DNA from: Lamprocystis purpurea DSM 4197
GTDB lineage: Bacteria; Pseudomonadota; Gammaproteobacteria; Chromatiales; Chromatiaceae
NCBI RefSeq assembly: GCF_000379525.1
Contig: NZ_KB902512.1
Coordinates: forward strand, 1-60,905
Direction: 5' to 3'
Length of the DNA: 60,905 nt
A program made the translations under genes and the position numbers. Shown here piece by piece: positions 16,333-29,655 of the stretch (position 1 is the stretch's first letter; every line of letters begins with the position of its first letter). Below the pieces are notes generated by a model that was not told the origin of the DNA, made no database searches, and saw nothing but the letters and a program-made list of their open reading frames with translations.

Positions 16333-17517
16333 TCAGAATTCGGCGACGGCGCGCAGGCTGAACACCCAGCCGTCGATGACATCCCCGGTGCGGTACTTGT
16401 CCTTCATGTACTGTACGTCGGCGGTCAGCGCCAGAGTGTCGTTGAAGGCAAGTCGATAGTAGCCCTCGACCGCATTGGTGCGCGCCAGCTCACCGCTGCC
16501 GCCTTCCAGGTAGGCGTAACCGATACCGATATTGTCGTTTTCCCGTCCCCAGCCAGCCCCTTTGAAATCGAACCCGCCCGAGTAGTCGGCCTGATAGTCG
16601 ACCAGTGCATCCTCTCGCTGCCAGCCCAGGCGCAGGAAGGCGCCGACAATCTTGCCGAACTCCTGATCAAAGGACAGCAGCAAACCGGACAGGTGTTCTT
16701 TGTCGGTCGGGTCCGGCTCCTCGGCCGAGTCCAGGTCGAGTGCCGGGTCGAGATCCGGATTCGGTTCCGGGTCCAGCCCGGCGGCTGGGGCCAGGAAGGC
16801 GCGGGAGGTGCCGACATACATCACACGATAGTTCCCCTCGCCCCAAGGTGTCTGCAGGTTGTAGTCTGCTTCGACGCCGAACCAGTTGAAGTTGTTCCCA
16901 TCGTCATTCTCGCCGACATTCATCCCCAGGCCGCTGAGGGTCAGGCGGTCGATCTTCCAGACCAGTGCGCCGCCCACGTCATAGGCGGGGAGAAAGGCGT
17001 TGCGCGAGTTCACGAAGGCCTCGTTCATGAACTGGGTGTACTCGTCGTTGGCGTAGGCGTTCTCGTTGACGTAGAACGCCGGATCGATGATGCCGCCGGT
17101 GACCTGGACTTCATTAGTGTCGGAGAAACGGAAGGTGTGGGCATACCAGGCCTCCAGCAGATAGCTGCGGTCGCGGCCGTTGATGTTCCTGACATCCGCT
17201 TCCAGGTCCGCGGCCCACGGGGAGAGTGCGAACGGGGAGACCGGGTTGAGTCCGTTCCCGGCAGCGAATCCAAACTTGACGAAGAACTGGTCCTGCTTGG
17301 TGGGGTTGAAGAAGATCTCGGGCCGGACGGGAACGGCGCCGCGACACCCGTTCTGTTCGTCCCCGCCACCCGTAACCTCCTGACACTGGCCGGCCCCGGC
17401 GAGCAGCAGGTTGATCGAGAGTTGCTCGTTCACGTCGTAGGCACGCGCGGCCCCGCCGCAGAGGCTGATCAGGGCGATGGCGAGCGCGGAGCGGAGCTGT
17501 TGGGCGTTGCTGTGCAT
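16333..17517 (-). CDS. OprB-like outer membrane porin
   Basis: About 394 residues from MHSNAQQLRSALAIALISLC, a signal peptide ending ARA. The mature part shows alternating beta strands of a porin, with blocks such as WYAHTFRFSDTNEVQVTGGI, a motif FMNEAFVNSRNAFL, and a final strand VFSLRAVAEF ending in phenylalanine as required for BAM recognition. The layout matches carbohydrate-selective OprB-type porins. An acidic insertion (DPEPNPDLDPALDLDSAEEP) lies in a predicted loop. Substrate unknown. It is convergent with the phosphatase gene (6 bp between ends). Confidence 0.85.
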   Translation of the reverse strand: MHSNAQQLRSALAIALISLCGGAARAYDVNEQLSINLLLAGAGQCQEVTGGGDEQNGCRGAVPVRPEIFFNPTKQDQFFVKFGFAAGNGLNPVSPFALSPWAADLEADVRNINGRDRSYLLEAWYAHTFRFSDTNEVQVTGGIIDPAFYVNENAYANDEYTQFMNEAFVNSRNAFLPAYDVGGALVWKIDRLTLSGLGMNVGENDDGNNFNWFGVEADYNLQTPWGEGNYRVMYVGTSRAFLAPAAGLDPEPNPDLDPALDLDSAEEPDPTDKEHLSGLLLSFDQEFGKIVGAFLRLGWQREDALVDYQADYSGGFDFKGAGWGRENDNIGIGYAYLEGGSGELARTNAVEGYYRLAFNDTLALTADVQYMKDKYRTGDVIDGWVFSLRAVAEF

Positions 17518-17922
17518 GAACTGATTTCCCCCGAAAAGATCAAGCGACAAAGGCCGGTGTTGCCGGATGGTGACTGCCGGTCGGGCTGCCCAACCTGGTG
17601 TCATGGATATTACGATTTGTCCATTAGTATGATTCCGTCGCTCTGATGGCGTCAAACTGCACGACTGATGCCTGTCGTGCTTGACGATTGAGGCGTGACG
17701 CGCGGAACCATGGCTGCCTGATTGCCGACAGTCACCGCCGGCGCCAGGTGCGGGGCATCCGCAGGCGCGCTGTGCAGATCTATTTCGTGAATAATATACG
17801 TTCTCATTCGCAACTGCAAACTTGGCGGTCGCGCCGATCCACCTGATTCAGGTGAGAGACTCTGCCGAAGCGTCTAGAATCGGCACCCTGAAGTGTCGAG
17901 TCGGATGTTGTTTGGGGGTGCT
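17518..17922. other. Divergent intergenic region with possible Fur-type operator
   Basis: No gene. On the minus strand, 17813-17790 reads TTGCGAATGAGAACGTATAT followed by TATT, which resembles gammaproteobacterial Fur boxes (AATGAGAA half-site followed by TAT). It lies about 110 bp before the Kunitz-domain lipoprotein gene and about 270 bp from the porin gene. It is only a sequence resemblance; either gene could be controlled. Confidence 0.3.
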
Positions 17923-18192
17923 ATGCGTTTGGTCTGGGTGTGTGCGATGCTGGTCGCGGTGTTGGCGCTCGTCGGTTGCGGCGGGAGCAAGGTGGGGCGG
18001 GGTAACCCGGAGGACTTACCGGTGAGTTGCGTGGCCAAGCCTGCGAAGGGGAATTGTCGGGGCCGCCAGACCAAGTATTATTTCGATTATCGTGACAACC
18101 GCTGCAAGTCCTTCACGCATACCGGCTGCGGCGGCCGGGTGCCGTTCGAGACCCTGGAGGATTGTGTGAATTATTGCGGGGCGACGCCTTAG
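17923..18192 (+). CDS. Lipoprotein with Kunitz/BPTI-type protease inhibitor domain
   Basis: 89 residues. A lipoprotein signal (VLALVGC, lipid-anchored Cys19, Gly at +2, pointing to the outer membrane) is followed by a short linker and one domain with six cysteines at 36, 45, 61, 69, 81 and 85. The spacing 9-16-8-12-4 is that of the Kunitz fold (BPTI 9-16-8-13-4). Other hallmarks are YYFDY, the CKSFTHTGC loop and ED before Cys81. The P1 position after the second Cys is Arg46, so a trypsin-like target is predicted. The ATG has GGGGGTG upstream. Kunitz domains are mainly an animal family and uncommon in bacteria. Confidence 0.88.
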   Translation: MRLVWVCAMLVAVLALVGCGGSKVGRGNPEDLPVSCVAKPAKGNCRGRQTKYYFDYRDNRCKSFTHTGCGGRVPFETLEDCVNYCGATP

Positions 18193-18698
18193 AGGGCGCG
18201 CGGGCGTGTGATGGAGATCAGTTGCGCGCAGCCGCGCGGCAATTGATCCCAGTCGTCCGGCATTTCCAGTCGCGCCAGGGTCCCGGTGGTGAGCAGTTTC
18301 CCGTCCTGCGGCGGGTCGAGGTCGTCGCCGCTCAGGTGTAACAACAGATCATCGAGGCCCGGATTGTGCCCGATCAGCAGAACCGTATGAGCCGCGGCCG
18401 GGCAGCGTCCGAGCACATCGAGCAATGCGGCCAGCGTCGCGTCGTAGATATCCGTGTCCCAAGCGATCCGTTCCCGGCCGATTTCCAGCACCTTGCAGAC
18501 CTTGATGGCGGTCTGGCGCGCCCGCTGGGCGGGCGAACTGACCACATGGTCAGGCACCAGACCCTCCCGGTAAAGCCAGGCGCCGACCTTGGGGGCGTCT
18601 TGTTTGCCGCGTTTGGCCAGCGGGCGGTCGAAGTCGGACTTCGCCCGTGAATCCCAGTCGGACTTGGCGTGGCGGAGGATCAGGAGTTCCCGTGGCAT
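18189..18698 (-). CDS. sixA: SixA-type phosphohistidine phosphatase
   Basis: 169 residues from MPRELLILRHAKSDW, containing the RHA signature of the histidine phosphatase superfamily (His9 nucleophile; the second His in LLIGHNPGLDDL). SSPAQRARQTA provides the phosphate-binding Arg. SixA removes phosphate from histidine (HPt domains or the nitrogen PTS protein). Its end overlaps the end of the convergent Kunitz lipoprotein gene by 4 bp. Confidence 0.9.
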   Translation of the reverse strand: MPRELLILRHAKSDWDSRAKSDFDRPLAKRGKQDAPKVGAWLYREGLVPDHVVSSPAQRARQTAIKVCKVLEIGRERIAWDTDIYDATLAALLDVLGRCPAAAHTVLLIGHNPGLDDLLLHLSGDDLDPPQDGKLLTTGTLARLEMPDDWDQLPRGCAQLISITRPRAL

Positions 18699-19741: not shown

Positions 19742-19947
19742 CAGCAATTCCAAATTTGGGCGACCTCGCGCGACCCCTGGTGGATGCGGCGCGCACGACC
19801 GACGTGCCGAGTCCCGAACAGCGTGCGGCGCGCCTTATCCACCCTACAAAATTGCAGATTTTGTAGGGTGGATAAGCGCAGCGCATCCACCATCAGCCTC
19901 GCGGCCTGCACGCTGTTGGGGGTGGCCACCCAAATTTGGAACTGCTG
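19742..19947. mobile_element. Palindromic element family C, copy 2
   Basis: 206 bp, exactly the same length as copy 1 at 6450-6655 and clearly similar along its whole length. Ends are CAGCAATTCCAAATTTGGG and its near-complement. An inner palindrome (CTTATCCACCCTACAA with its complement) lies at the centre. The flanking 9-mers (TATGCTCCG and TGCGCTTCG) agree at six positions, an aged target duplication or chance. It lies directly upstream of the ribosome binding site of the fructosamine kinase gene. Confidence 0.85.
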
Positions 19948-19976: not shown

Positions 19977-20612
19977 TCAAGCCGAAGGGTCCTTGCCGAG
20001 GCGTCCATGCAGCGGGCTGCTGCGCGGAAAATGGGCGCGCAAAAACTCCATCTGATCGGCCAGGACGCCGCGACCCATCAAGTAAATATACTCGGCATGG
20101 GTCGGCGTGAAGGGGACCGCCAGCAGTTCCATGCCGGCTGACTCCGGGGTCCGCCCGGCCTTGAAGTTGTTGCAGCGCACACAGGCGCTCACCACGTTGT
20201 TCCAGTGGTCGCGTCCACCCTGACTGGACGGCCGCACATGGTCGCGGGAGAGCTGATGGCTCGTAAACCGACAGCCGCAGTACATACACAGGTGATCGTC
20301 GCGTTGAAACAGCGTCCGATTGCACAACGGCGGTGCATAATCACCCTGCAGCTTGTTCAGGGCGTGGTGCACGCCATGGGTGGCGATGATCGAGTGGATC
20401 AGCAGCCGGCTGCGGCGCCTGGTGACCGCATTGATGCCGCCGCGCAGATGGAACAAAGGATCCCCACAGGCGTAGGCGACCTGTTCGAGTAAATACAGAC
20501 GCGCGGCGGTGCGGTAATCCACCCACTCCAGTGGCATACCCGCCAGATCCGTGCGCAGTACCTGTTGATTCAATGGCACCATAGCGGGATACGGCTCGGA
20601 GTTTGCAGCCAT
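19977..20612 (-). CDS. HNH endonuclease-domain protein
   Basis: 211 residues. After an N-terminal helical part (EWVDYRTAARLYLLEQVAYA), the HNH/zinc module is CMYCGCRF...SRDHVRPSSQGGRDHWNNVV...CVRCNNFKAGR: paired CxxC zinc ligands, DH of the first catalytic strand, and the central Asn. This is the compact stand-alone HNH type common in Chromatiaceae and cyanobacteria whose target is unknown. No toxin, restriction or intron context is visible. The gene is divergent from priA. Confidence 0.85.
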   Translation of the reverse strand: MAANSEPYPAMVPLNQQVLRTDLAGMPLEWVDYRTAARLYLLEQVAYACGDPLFHLRGGINAVTRRRSRLLIHSIIATHGVHHALNKLQGDYAPPLCNRTLFQRDDHLCMYCGCRFTSHQLSRDHVRPSSQGGRDHWNNVVSACVRCNNFKAGRTPESAGMELLAVPFTPTHAEYIYLMGRGVLADQMEFLRAHFPRSSPLHGRLGKDPSA

Positions 20613-20707
20613 GATACACACTGTATCCGGGTGCGCAAGCGTCGCGGTGCCCTGCGGGGATCTCCCGAATGCCGCGGTTGCCGCCGAACAGGGTATTCTG
20701 GCGTGTT

Positions 20708-25574: not shown

Positions 25575-28500
25575 CTAGAAATCAAGCCGGTTCAACACCT
25601 GCCCCGTCTTGGAATCCTTGACGATGGCGCGGAGCACTTTCGCGGTGCCGCAGCGGCCCAGCATCACTAACTCGGCGGCCCCGTTGCCGTTCAGGTCGGC
25701 GATGCTCACCAGGTCGAGCGGCGCACAAGCCCTGTCGTACCAAATCTGGTTCAGCCACCGGCCGGTCGCGCCGTCCAGCACGGTCGTGTTTACTTGGCCG
25801 GTCGCGGGTTTGCGGCCCAGCACCGCGTACTCCTGCGCACCATTGCCGTTCATGTCGTCCACGACGACTAACTTCAGCGGGTCGTACTCGGGGTTGAAAG
25901 CGGCCAAGGTGGCGACGCGTTGGTTGGTGACCGCATTAACCACCCACACCTGCGTGGCGTCCGCGGCCGCGGGACGCCACAGCATCGCGACCTGGGTGAT
26001 GCCGTTCCGGTCGGTGACCGCCTCGGCCTGCAGCAAGTCGGCCCCGGACCAGAGCGTTTGTACCGTGGCCCCGGTGCGGGAGTCCATGATGAGTACGCGA
26101 TCGGCCTTGTCTTTCTCGGACAGGATCACCCCGACCTCGGCGCTGCCGTTGCCGTTGAGGTCGGGCAAGGCCAGCACTTGGCGCGGTTCGAACTGCGCGG
26201 CGACGGGCAGGGTGTTGAGCAGGTTACCGGTGAGCGAATCGCGTATGTCGACACGGGTCGAGTCCACGGTGACCGGGCAGAGCGTCGGGGCATTGGCGGG
26301 TGCGGGTGCCCGGACGAAAATGTCACCCGTACCATTGGTGTCGTCCGCAACGAGGTTCGCATAAGACAGGAATGCGACGGTGCTGCCGTCGGCGCTGATC
26401 GCCGGCGCGTTCGATGCCATATAATCCCACGAGCCAAGCTGACCTGAATCCCCGCAGGTGTCGGTGCTCACGCGCTCGGTTCTGCCCGTTTCACGGTCGT
26501 GGACGAATACGTCTTCAATGTCGTTGTCTTTCGGCACGAGATTGCTGGCGGAGGACGCGAACGCCACGAACTGTCCATCGGCACTGATCGTAGGATAAGA
26601 ACTCGTGCCGTTACCTTGAACCCCGCTCGAGTCGAGACTCACTCGCTCGGTCCTGGCTGTTTCACGGTCGTGGACGAAGACGTCATCCGCAGCGTTGGTG
26701 TCGCCCGATACGAGATTGCTGGCCGCGGATGTGAACGCGACGAACCGTCCGTCCGAACTGATCGCCGGAGACCGGCTCGAGTCGTTCGCTTGAACCCCGT
26801 TCGACTCAAGACTCACCCGTTCAGTCGCACCGGTGTTGCGGTCGTGGACGAATGCGTCAGTCGCACGGTTGGTGTCGTTCGAGGCGAGATTGTCGGCAAT
26901 GGAGGCGAACGCGACGAACCGTCCGTCTGAACTGATCGCCGGAGACCAGCTCCAGTCGTTCGCTTGAACCCCATTCGAGTCGAGACTCACTCGCTCGGTC
27001 GTGGCCGTTTCACGGTCATGGACGAAGATGTCATCCGCAGCGTTGGTGTCGCCCGATACGAGATTGCTGGCCGCGGAGGTGAATACGACGAACCGTCCGT
27101 CAGCGCTGATTGCTATTTTATCACCGTAAGTACTCGAAGAATTACCTTGGACCCCGTTTGAATCGAGACTGACTCGCTCAGTCGTGCCCGCTTTACGGTC
27201 GCGGACGAAGACGTCTTCCGCAGCGTTGGTGTCGCCTGGCACGAGATTGCTGGCGTAGGATGCGAACGCGACGAACTGTCCATCGGCACTGATCGCAGCA
27301 TAAGAACTGGAGTTGTTACCTTGAACTCCGTTCGAGTCGAGACTAATCCGCTCGGTCGTGCCCGTTTCACGGTCGCGGATGAAGACGTCATGCGCGTCAT
27401 TGGTGTCATCCGGTACGAGATTGCTGGACTGGGCTTTGAACGCGACGAACCGTCCGTCAGCGCTGATTGCCGGGAACTCGGTTCCGCCTTGGTTGCCTTG
27501 CGCTCCGTTCGAGTCGAGACTCACCCGCTCGGTCACCCCCTCCGCCGCGATCTGCATCATCGTCGATGCCGTGAGGAGCGTGGCAAGTTCTTGGACGCCA
27601 TTGCCATCCTGGTCGGGGAGCACCGCTAGATCCACGGCGGTGGATTCGGGATCGAAGGCGACACTCCCGCGCAGATCGCCCGTCGGTGCATGACGGGTCT
27701 CGGCCCGGCTCGGGACGCCCCCGAGCAGGACGAGCTGCGGGCTAAGGTCTTGGCTGACGGCTGGCATCGTCTTGGCGGCGACCACCGGGCGCAGGCCGAC
27801 GCTGAATTCGAATTGGCTGATCAGGGCGCCGTTGACGGCGTCCTTCACCGTCGCGCGACTGGGACCCTCGGCGCTGGTGATGACGGCGATCTCCGGAGAG
27901 CCGTCACCGTTGGTGTCGCCGAGGGACAGCAGCCTGGCACGCCAGGGCGCCTCGTCGACTTGCGCCTCAACCGCGCCCAAGTCGATGCGGTCGCTGACCA
28001 CGCGGGCAAAGCCGGTGCCGCGTTGGTCAAACTCGGGCGGGGGGCTGAAGTCCGGATCGCCGCGATCGAGCGCCGGGCTGCCAGGTCGCAGGGCTTGGGT
28101 GTGGGTGGGGCCGCCATGGTCTCCCAAAGGTCCGAGCATCGGGTCGATGCCGAAGAGGTTGGACCCGGTCACCTTCTCATTGATCGTTACGTCAGGCGGC
28201 GCCTGAATCAACGAATAATCGACGTCGAAGGGGATAGGCCCGGTCAGGTCCAGCCCCGAGCCTGACCCGTTACCCGCGACGATTGAATTCAGGATAGAAA
28301 TCTCGCCATATGAATGATCATTGTAATAAAATGGTAGAAATTCGACGCCGGCGAACGCGTTGCCGGTGATTGTCGTGTTCCGTATCTGTAGAGATAGTTG
28401 GCTGAGCCATAACGAGGAGGAAAATCCGGTGCCCCCATTTCCGGTGATGGTGCTGTTATCGATTGTGAATGCGCAGCTGGAGTAGCCGAGGCTTACCGAA

Positions 28501-29324
28501 ACGCCGGAGTGATTCCCGAAGATCAGGCTGCCGCTAATGGAAGCACGACCGCCCCCATAACATGCACGAATTCCGGTTGCGTTATCGGTAATCGTGCTGT
28601 CGGTGATCGCAACACTGTTGTCGGCAATAATACCTGTCACATTCCCTATAACCACGGTGTTTCGGATGGTTGTCGTGTGATTATCGCCCAATTTCCAAGA
28701 AGCGCCAACAATGATGCCAAAATGGTTGTCGGAGACCAATGAATCACTGACTTCCAAATCACCGTATCCGTACGAATCGCTAGGATAGATTCCAGTAGTG
28801 TTTCCAGTGATAACCGTATCTGCAACCTTGACTCGAGTGCTATAGTCGGAGCCATTGATTGCGGTGAGTGCGTTCGTCAACGTCAAGCCGGAAACGGTGA
28901 GTTCTAGGGATTGATATGAAGGGCGGTCATACTGCAACTGCAGGATATCGAAAGCTCCACCGCCATCCAGCGTCAATTCCGCCGCGCCCGGCCCGCTCAG
29001 CGTCAGCACGTCCGTGCTGACCAGTGCCCCGGAGGTGAGTGTAATGGTGCCGGTGACGGTGGACGCAAAGACGATCTCGTCCGGCCCCGGTTCGGCATTG
29101 GCGTCGAGCATCGCCTGACGCAGGCTGCCCGGCCCGGCATCGTCGGTAGTGGTGACGGTGAAGGTCTCGGCCAAGGTGTTCAGCGGGCTCGCAAGCGCCA
29201 ATGCCAGGACGCTCGCTGCCGCGAGGTGCCTGGCCGGGCTTGGACCCAGGCTCGCACGCATGGCAACGGCCAGCGGACCGGGTAAGTGTGAGGGCAGCGT
29301 GATCAGGTTGACGGGTTCGATCAT
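25575..29324 (-). CDS. Large exported beta-helix / PD40-propeller / FG-GAP protein
   Basis: About 1249 residues from ATG 29324 (GGAAGC upstream; a TTG at 29387 is less likely). A signal peptide ends near SPLNTLA. A right-handed beta-helix of CSLREA/parallel-helix type follows (DDAGPGSLRQAMLDAN, then ITGN/ISGS repeats, about 60-390). Two FG-GAP-like segments (GDTNGDGSPEIAV) precede seven consecutive PD40 repeats of about 58 residues, each with TERVSLDSNGVQ, AISADGRFVAF and DVFVHDRETG (about 605-1015). The C terminus has further Ca-binding-like NGNG repeats (DLNGNGSAEVGV, DMNGNGAQEYAV). Probably a surface or secreted adhesin-like protein; no sorting signal recognised. Confidence 0.85.
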   Translation of the reverse strand: MIEPVNLITLPSHLPGPLAVAMRASLGPSPARHLAAASVLALALASPLNTLAETFTVTTTDDAGPGSLRQAMLDANAEPGPDEIVFASTVTGTITLTSGALVSTDVLTLSGPGAAELTLDGGGAFDILQLQYDRPSYQSLELTVSGLTLTNALTAINGSDYSTRVKVADTVITGNTTGIYPSDSYGYGDLEVSDSLVSDNHFGIIVGASWKLGDNHTTTIRNTVVIGNVTGIIADNSVAITDSTITDNATGIRACYGGGRASISGSLIFGNHSGVSVSLGYSSCAFTIDNSTITGNGGTGFSSSLWLSQLSLQIRNTTITGNAFAGVEFLPFYYNDHSYGEISILNSIVAGNGSGSGLDLTGPIPFDVDYSLIQAPPDVTINEKVTGSNLFGIDPMLGPLGDHGGPTHTQALRPGSPALDRGDPDFSPPPEFDQRGTGFARVVSDRIDLGAVEAQVDEAPWRARLLSLGDTNGDGSPEIAVITSAEGPSRATVKDAVNGALISQFEFSVGLRPVVAAKTMPAVSQDLSPQLVLLGGVPSRAETRHAPTGDLRGSVAFDPESTAVDLAVLPDQDGNGVQELATLLTASTMMQIAAEGVTERVSLDSNGAQGNQGGTEFPAISADGRFVAFKAQSSNLVPDDTNDAHDVFIRDRETGTTERISLDSNGVQGNNSSSYAAISADGQFVAFASYASNLVPGDTNAAEDVFVRDRKAGTTERVSLDSNGVQGNSSSTYGDKIAISADGRFVVFTSAASNLVSGDTNAADDIFVHDRETATTERVSLDSNGVQANDWSWSPAISSDGRFVAFASIADNLASNDTNRATDAFVHDRNTGATERVSLESNGVQANDSSRSPAISSDGRFVAFTSAASNLVSGDTNAADDVFVHDRETARTERVSLDSSGVQGNGTSSYPTISADGQFVAFASSASNLVPKDNDIEDVFVHDRETGRTERVSTDTCGDSGQLGSWDYMASNAPAISADGSTVAFLSYANLVADDTNGTGDIFVRAPAPANAPTLCPVTVDSTRVDIRDSLTGNLLNTLPVAAQFEPRQVLALPDLNGNGSAEVGVILSEKDKADRVLIMDSRTGATVQTLWSGADLLQAEAVTDRNGITQVAMLWRPAAADATQVWVVNAVTNQRVATLAAFNPEYDPLKLVVVDDMNGNGAQEYAVLGRKPATGQVNTTVLDGATGRWLNQIWYDRACAPLDLVSIADLNGNGAAELVMLGRCGTAKVLRAIVKDSKTGQVLNRLDF

Positions 29325-29655
29325 GATGAGCTTCCGTGGGCTGAAGTGTTGCGCGTCACCGGCAGACAGTTGTTGGAACAATGACAAGGATTAGAGTATC
29401 GAGATACCTTGTCGGATCGTCAAATCAAATCGCTGAGTATAGGATTTGACAGAAATCGCCTAAGATAAGGTTCGTCGTCCCCACGTTTGACCGGGCGCCG
29501 CGCAGCCGGGCCTCGATCAAGATTCCGGCCGCTTGGGCTCGCCGGGTGCGTCGTTACCGTCAGGGCTGGGAGCCCTGACGACGCATGCCGCTGGCTTACG
29601 ATCAAGGCCCGCGGCCCGAACCCCGAACCCGGCTGCACGCGTCACAGGTCCCAAC
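29325..29655. other. Divergent intergenic region holding family B element
   Basis: 29509-29609 is a family B element. The remainder (29325-29508) is AT-richer and should carry the promoters of the large beta-helix gene (minus) and of the yhaO/yhaN pair (plus). GACAGAAATCGCCTAAG at about 29448-29464 resembles the right arm of the element behind yhaN (34688-34701) but has no partner arm here. Confidence 0.5.
29509..29609. mobile_element. Palindromic element family B, copy 2
   Basis: Left end GGCCTCGATCAAGATTCCGG (29509 on), right end GATCAAGGCC (to 29609), around an inner hairpin CGTCAGGGCTGGGAGCCCTG. The flanking 8-mers CGCAGCCG and CGCGGCCC match at six positions, compatible with an aged target duplication. 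An upstream reading of the yhaO frame runs through it and is spurious. Confidence 0.7.

Follow-up and report, generated by a model that had tools for sequence, protein, structure and literature searches.

The open reading frame at 17923–18192 of the window (the whole 60,905-nucleotide stretch of Lamprocystis purpurea DSM 4197 DNA analyzed here) encodes a lipoprotein with one Kunitz/BPTI domain, which confirms the original observation. The Kunitz profile PF00014 matches residues 36–85 with an E value of 7.4e-11 and a score of 42.5 bits against a cut-off of 21. A PDB search with the protein returned 108 distinct sequences at E<=0.01, headed by SmCI, TFPI, and boophilin. The AlphaFold2 model, built on 28 related sequences, was of moderate confidence (mean pLDDT 70.7; ten-residue blocks across the domain, 69–85), and its comparison with known structures identified the predicted fold as the Kunitz fold: the best 50 of 239 Foldseek matches were Kunitz-fold proteins by title, and so were the 50 matches listed by VIA-align. 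Cysteines I–VI are all present, with a spacing of 9-16-8-12-4 compared with 9-16-8-13-4 in animal domains; the cysteines, motifs, lipobox, and P1 residue of this 89-codon forward-strand frame are as first noted. The 6.9-Mb genome contains one Kunitz match, and 14 control genomes contain none. The lipoprotein matched no NCBIfam model above its cut-off, no Padloc model, and nothing in the plasmid, phage, and viral collections; it matched PF00014 only and not the ecotin profile PF03974, for which the genome likewise gave no match. The features of the locus are collected in Table 1.

Table 1. Features of the Kunitz lipoprotein gene and its upstream region; positions are those of the window.
Feature	Position	Strand	Basis or remark
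Likely promoter, GTGAGA-17-TAGAAT	17852..17880	+	Consensus match only
Kunitz lipoprotein gene, 89 aa	17923..18192	+	Sole PF00014 match in own genome
Lipoprotein signal peptide, residues 1–18, lipobox L-V-G-C	17923..17976	+	Sequence
Cys19, lipidation predicted; +2 = Gly	17977..17979	+	Sequence
16-residue linker, lipid Cys to first Kunitz Cys (homologs: 12–22)	17980..18027	+	
Kunitz/BPTI domain, residues 36–85	18028..18177	+	PF00014, 42.5 bits; predicted fold
Predicted reactive-site segment P1–P4' (Arg46-Gly-Arg-Gln-Thr50)	18058..18072	+	Fastest-evolving part in the window's genus
G-G-R-V-P-F stretch, residues 70–75	18130..18147	+	Alignments: one residue fewer than animal Kunitz domains

Within the Chromatiaceae, PF00014 matched in 62 of 194 genomes and 17 of 61 genera, with one copy each and the L. 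purpurea genome included; the other 132 genomes had no Kunitz gene, and all eight genomes of the window's genus carried it. An order-level search (62/210 genomes) reached no genera beyond the 61 of the family search and is therefore uninformative on other families of the order. The genome survey, whose scope was the window's own phylum, gave matches in 3 of 368 genomes of the class sample besides the window's own genome and in 2 of 397 of the phylum sample; in the orders of two of these outsiders the counts, which include the outsider itself, were 5/115 (one broken by stops) and 1/48. Locus L113, with internal stops and an E value of 9.7e-4, was left out of all intact-domain counts. A scan of named genomes, queried with eight Chromatiaceae-type sequences and hence biased to these, found 27 loci; named homologs belong to Thiodictyon, Lamprocystis, Thiocapsa (with T. 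roseopersicina at L089), Chromatium, Marichromatium, Thiorhodococcus, Thiohalocapsa, Thiococcus, Thiobaca, and Ca. Thiosymbion oneisti. Among named relatives, the two closest, an uncultured Lamprocystis and a Chromatiaceae bacterium, each reach 93% across the protein. The initial annotation had called Kunitz domains overwhelmingly animal; they are mainly animal, but that description overlooks a bacterial subfamily that is common in the Chromatiaceae.

The lipoprotein signal, with a lipobox at Cys19 and Gly at +2, was borne out by the homologs. All 62 from the Chromatiaceae have a lipobox-like Cys after Gly, Ala, or Ser, 12–22 residues before the domain, and Asp at +2 occurs in none of them (0/62); among the eight intact homologs from outside the family, six have a lipobox by eye and two look simply secreted. 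The sorting rule that relates the +2 residue to the outer membrane is known from E. coli. The L. purpurea protein would be exported and receive its lipid on Cys19, and its probable destination is the outer membrane.

A Fur-type site upstream of the gene had also been suggested. The window contains no match at three or fewer mismatches to what we take to be the 19-base Fur consensus, and a scan of the upstream region found the site recognizable in only two of six relatives; Fur regulation of the gene, and with it the link to iron, was rejected. The GTGAG and TAGAAT elements of the likely promoter are each conserved in six of seven aligned rows, and the promoter-like element is better kept and closer to the gene start than the putative Fur site. 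At the other end, the Kunitz gene and a SixA-type gene are convergent and overlap in their last 4 bases (18189–18192), and no terminator-like stem was found in 17500–18300.

With moderate confidence, we interpret the protein as a membrane-anchored canonical, that is substrate-like, inhibitor of exogenous S1 serine proteases. The 16-residue linker would hold a disulfide-locked Kunitz domain whose loop, with Arg46 at P1 and Gly47 at P1', would occupy the active site of a trypsin-like S1 protease; judged by sequence, the two residues are compatible with S1 protease inhibition. The proposed targets are proteases of other organisms, whether hosts (ciliates or nematodes), grazers, or predatory bacteria. 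Chromatiaceae have specialized predators with numerous peptidases; Vampirococcus is one so described (PMC8080830). The Kunitz domain would face outward or could, alternatively, face the periplasm.

The rate of change of the loop bears on this reading. Codon likelihood models were fitted for all nine genera with at least three members, using gene trees from the domain itself and p values uncorrected for the nine genera. In the window's genus (8 sequences), omega was 0.35 at P1–P4' (codons 15–19, BPTI numbering) versus 0.034 elsewhere (2 delta lnL 29.85, p 4.7e-8), an approximately tenfold rate excess, with the non-contact part of the domain nearly frozen. Of 16 five-codon control blocks, only 11–15, 14–18, and 17–21 were significantly faster than the rest. 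A loop rate excess was found in six of the nine genera, three of them strongly: besides the window's genus, g16 (0.53 versus 0.116 for the rest, p 4e-6), g59 (n = 3; 1.90 versus 0.162, p 3e-6; loop versus 1, p 0.19), g22 (n = 3; 0.53 versus 0.125, p 0.017), g57 (0.22 versus 0.077, p 0.023), and g24 (0.17 versus 0.072, p 0.023; 0.17 versus 0.061, p 0.044, minus two outlying sequences). It was absent in the other three: g38 (0.03 versus 0.027, p 0.88), g28 (n = 3; 0.00 versus 0.053, p 0.56), and g29 (n = 3; 0.09 versus 0.087, p 0.98). A counting method gave a dN/dS of 1.60 for P1–P4' in the window's genus, but the codon likelihood value of 0.35 is significantly below 1 (p 0.008), so positive selection is not claimed and the excess may reflect relaxed constraint. 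The loop pattern is a rate excess, short of proof of positive selection. A conserved scaffold with a replaced contact loop nevertheless suggests a target that differs between lineages, and foreign proteases fit such a target better than one of the cell's own housekeeping enzymes would.

Two members of the family are informative. Ca. Thiodictyon intracellulare is reported to live as a purple endosymbiont in the ciliate Pseudoblepharisma tenue, with a 2.9 Mbp genome and extensive gene loss; its closest known relative, Ca. T. syntrophicum, has 7.74 Mbp (PMC8195481). Its Kunitz reading frame (L033 = L079) is intact despite the genome reduction. Against genome G107, the domain codons show nine synonymous and nine replacement changes, and five of the nine replacements fall at positions 13–18. 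The second is Chromatium okenii DSM 169 (L040 = L088; L040 4021–4170), in which Cys II (Cys14) and Cys IV (Cys38) are both lost and the rest kept; both are present in C. okenii LaCa (L021 = L090). In BPTI, Cys14 and Cys38 are the two ends of one disulfide, and their joint loss in DSM 169 is as expected if they are paired in the same way.

The composition of the loop is where inhibition has to be weighed against a Kunitz module that binds without inhibiting, serving adhesion or envelope structure in the manner of animal Kunitz proteins that lack inhibition, and with a loop free to vary. A loop omega that is below 1 yet above the rest of the domain is also expected from relaxed constraint. Weighted entropy over the 62 domains was highest at BPTI positions 34, 17, 53, 39, and 18, four of which are contact positions; the mean was 2.43 bits at what we take to be the set of BPTI contact positions and 1.60 at other non-Cys positions. 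P1 is Arg in 34 of the 62 family domains, Ala in 6, Ser in 6, Gly in 5, Lys in 4, His in 3, Asp in 2, and Pro in 2. Gly, Asp, and Pro are poor P1 residues, and the nine domains that have one of them fit a binding module, as do the 25 of 62 in which Gly36-Gly37 is altered (it is kept in 37); in the window's genus, the contact position usually occupied by Gly36 holds Thr or Ser. On the other side, P1 is Arg or Lys in 38/62 domains and P1' is small (Ala, Gly, or Ser) in 56/62, as in inhibitors; P1 is also Arg or Lys in seven of the eight intact homologs outside the family, and Gly12 is conserved in 57/62. Taken together, we regard a non-inhibitory module as unlikely. The trypsin-like target originally predicted from Arg46 holds up in part: P1 is basic in the window's species, but Arg at 34/62 is not a family trait, and because P1 varies between R, H, G, and A within the genus, such a target can be claimed only for the window's species and its two sisters.

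A further alternative is a role within the cell's own envelope: from the periplasmic side of the outer membrane, the protein would regulate, or guard against, one of the cell's own proteases, such as an HtrA-type or V8-like enzyme of the periplasm. Candidates for such a role exist: the genome has nine PF00089 (S1-type) matches, seven with the HtrA-type GNSGG and two V8-like by eye, and no GDSGG was seen in the frames of these nine. The conserved loop in g38, g28, and g29 would likewise fit a constant target. The inhibitor is patchy, however, at 62/194 genomes, whereas PF00089-type enzymes were found in 11 of 14 control genomes, and the fast change of the loop within the window's genus also argues against a resident target. 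Ecotin, an envelope inhibitor of exogenous serine proteases, is reported to spare DegP and HtrA (PMC7773321). Nor did the flanks point to a partner. Near the Kunitz gene in the seven other genomes of the genus are a SixA-type phosphatase (6/7, inverted in two), a fructosamine kinase (6/7), a low-molecular-weight phosphatase (5/7), an OprB porin (3/7), and an HNH gene (2/7); none of these is visible on the short Ca. T. intracellulare contig, and the flanks in other genera hold rubrerythrin and metallophosphoesterase, or SLT transglycosylase and Maf. Across genera, the flanks compared showed no conserved partner gene, in a clustering that was noisy with antisense frames. Regulation of an own-cell protease therefore appears quite improbable.

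Other features were observed around the locus. Nested imperfect inverted repeats lie at 19742–19947, between the fructosamine kinase gene and the HNH gene, with 33-nt arms that are 79% complementary and inner perfect 19-nt arms (CTTATCCACCCTACAAAAT); the arrangement resembles a miniature mobile element or a palindromic element. The longest kinase open reading frame starts inside the repeat (19886), so a more internal start is probably the true one. The HNH endonuclease gene (19977–20621, reverse strand) is near the locus only in the two closest of the seven other genomes of the genus, and it matches PtuB and Cas9 HNH models weakly, probably through nothing more than the common HNH motif. Farther along, a 1270-aa open reading frame (25575–29387, reverse strand) contains repeated units of the type SADGRFVAFASxASNLVxxDTN and may encode a large repeat protein that is secreted or displayed on the surface.

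All 70 intact bacterial domains (62 from the Chromatiaceae and 8 from outsiders) have one residue fewer between Cys IV and V than animal domains. The family domains were collected by a script that looked for the spacing 9-16-8-12-4, and it caught all 62 profile matches. The signature F-x2-{I}-G-C-x6-[FY]-x5-C, which we take to be PROSITE PS00280, a diagnostic pattern and not the definition of PF00014, fits 12/12 animal domains and 0/70 bacterial domains, the window's domain among the non-fitting. It fails because the bacterial domains are one residue short between Cys IV and V; with x5 in place of x6, 54/70 fit. In a tree built on 50 columns from 12 animal domains and half of the bacterial set (35 of 70), one branch parts the bacterial from the animal domains (support 96/78; 94% of bootstrap trees, from a bootstrap that had not settled). 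The shared deletion and the tree split make it likely that the bacterial Kunitz domains are a single lineage. That the gene is a contaminant, or came very recently from an animal, might be brought to mind by the mainly animal occurrence of Kunitz domains but is extremely improbable given the bacterial signal peptide, the deletion common to 70/70 domains, the separate branch, and the presence of the gene in 62/194 genomes of the family and 8/8 of the genus, with neighbors common within the genus.

The domain resembles the animal Kunitz/BPTI inhibitors (PF00014, MEROPS I2; BPTI, TFPI, boophilin, SmCI) in its fold, six Cys, profile matches, and a basic P1 followed by a small P1'. It differs in lacking one residue between Cys IV and V and in falling on a separate branch, and the window's protein is a single domain behind a bacterial lipoprotein signal. 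Ecotin (PF03974), with a fold unrelated to Kunitz, is a functional analog that differs in being soluble in the periplasm, and Omp19 is an outer-membrane lipoprotein. The nine ecotin genomes of the family (of 194) do not overlap with the 62 Kunitz genomes (p 0.03 counted by genome, p 0.09 counted by genus), which hints weakly at substitution. Omp19 / U-Omp19 (I38 family) is described as a bacterial envelope protein that inhibits foreign proteases; it has a beta-barrel plus a disordered inhibitory segment and no Kunitz fold (PMC9486555). Five Kunitz domains, KABP1-5, are reported from the genome of Acinetobacter baumannii F6W77, three with P1 Arg, with protease-inhibiting and anticoagulant activity and a suggested transfer from animals; they differ in lying in one secreted protein, and the comparison is by their published description (PMC11511053). 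This was the one functional study on bacterial Kunitz inhibitors found in the literature searched; the review by Kantyka et al. (2010), which was outside the search, may list bacterial I2 members. A literature search for Kunitz and Chromatiaceae found no paper. Because Pfam already recognizes the domain, its kind is known; for the Chromatiaceae lipoprotein family, its deletion, and its loop pattern, no description was found in the literature searched.

Many purple sulfur bacteria thus have a small, probably lipid-anchored protein with the fold of an animal trypsin inhibitor. Its contact loop evolves rapidly in several lineages, and this suggests a role in blocking foreign proteases, for example those of predators or hosts. 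Kunitz inhibitors are regarded as an animal invention; here they form a lineage that is established among environmental bacteria. The bacterial domains also provide a natural scaffold that is compact and varied in its loop. A bolder and more doubtful proposal is that this distinct bacterial lineage, marked by its deletion and mostly lipid-anchored, serves purple sulfur bacteria as a molecular shield, with the loop retuned to the proteases of each lineage's ciliate, nematode, or predatory bacterium. If the shield reading is true, persistence of the gene and replacement of its loop in the ciliate endosymbiont would be part of the symbiont's escape from digestion. If foreign proteases are inhibited, the protein would be a molecular entry point, open to testing, into two questions: how purple bacteria withstand predation, and how a phagotrophic ciliate comes to retain its bacterial partner instead of digesting it.
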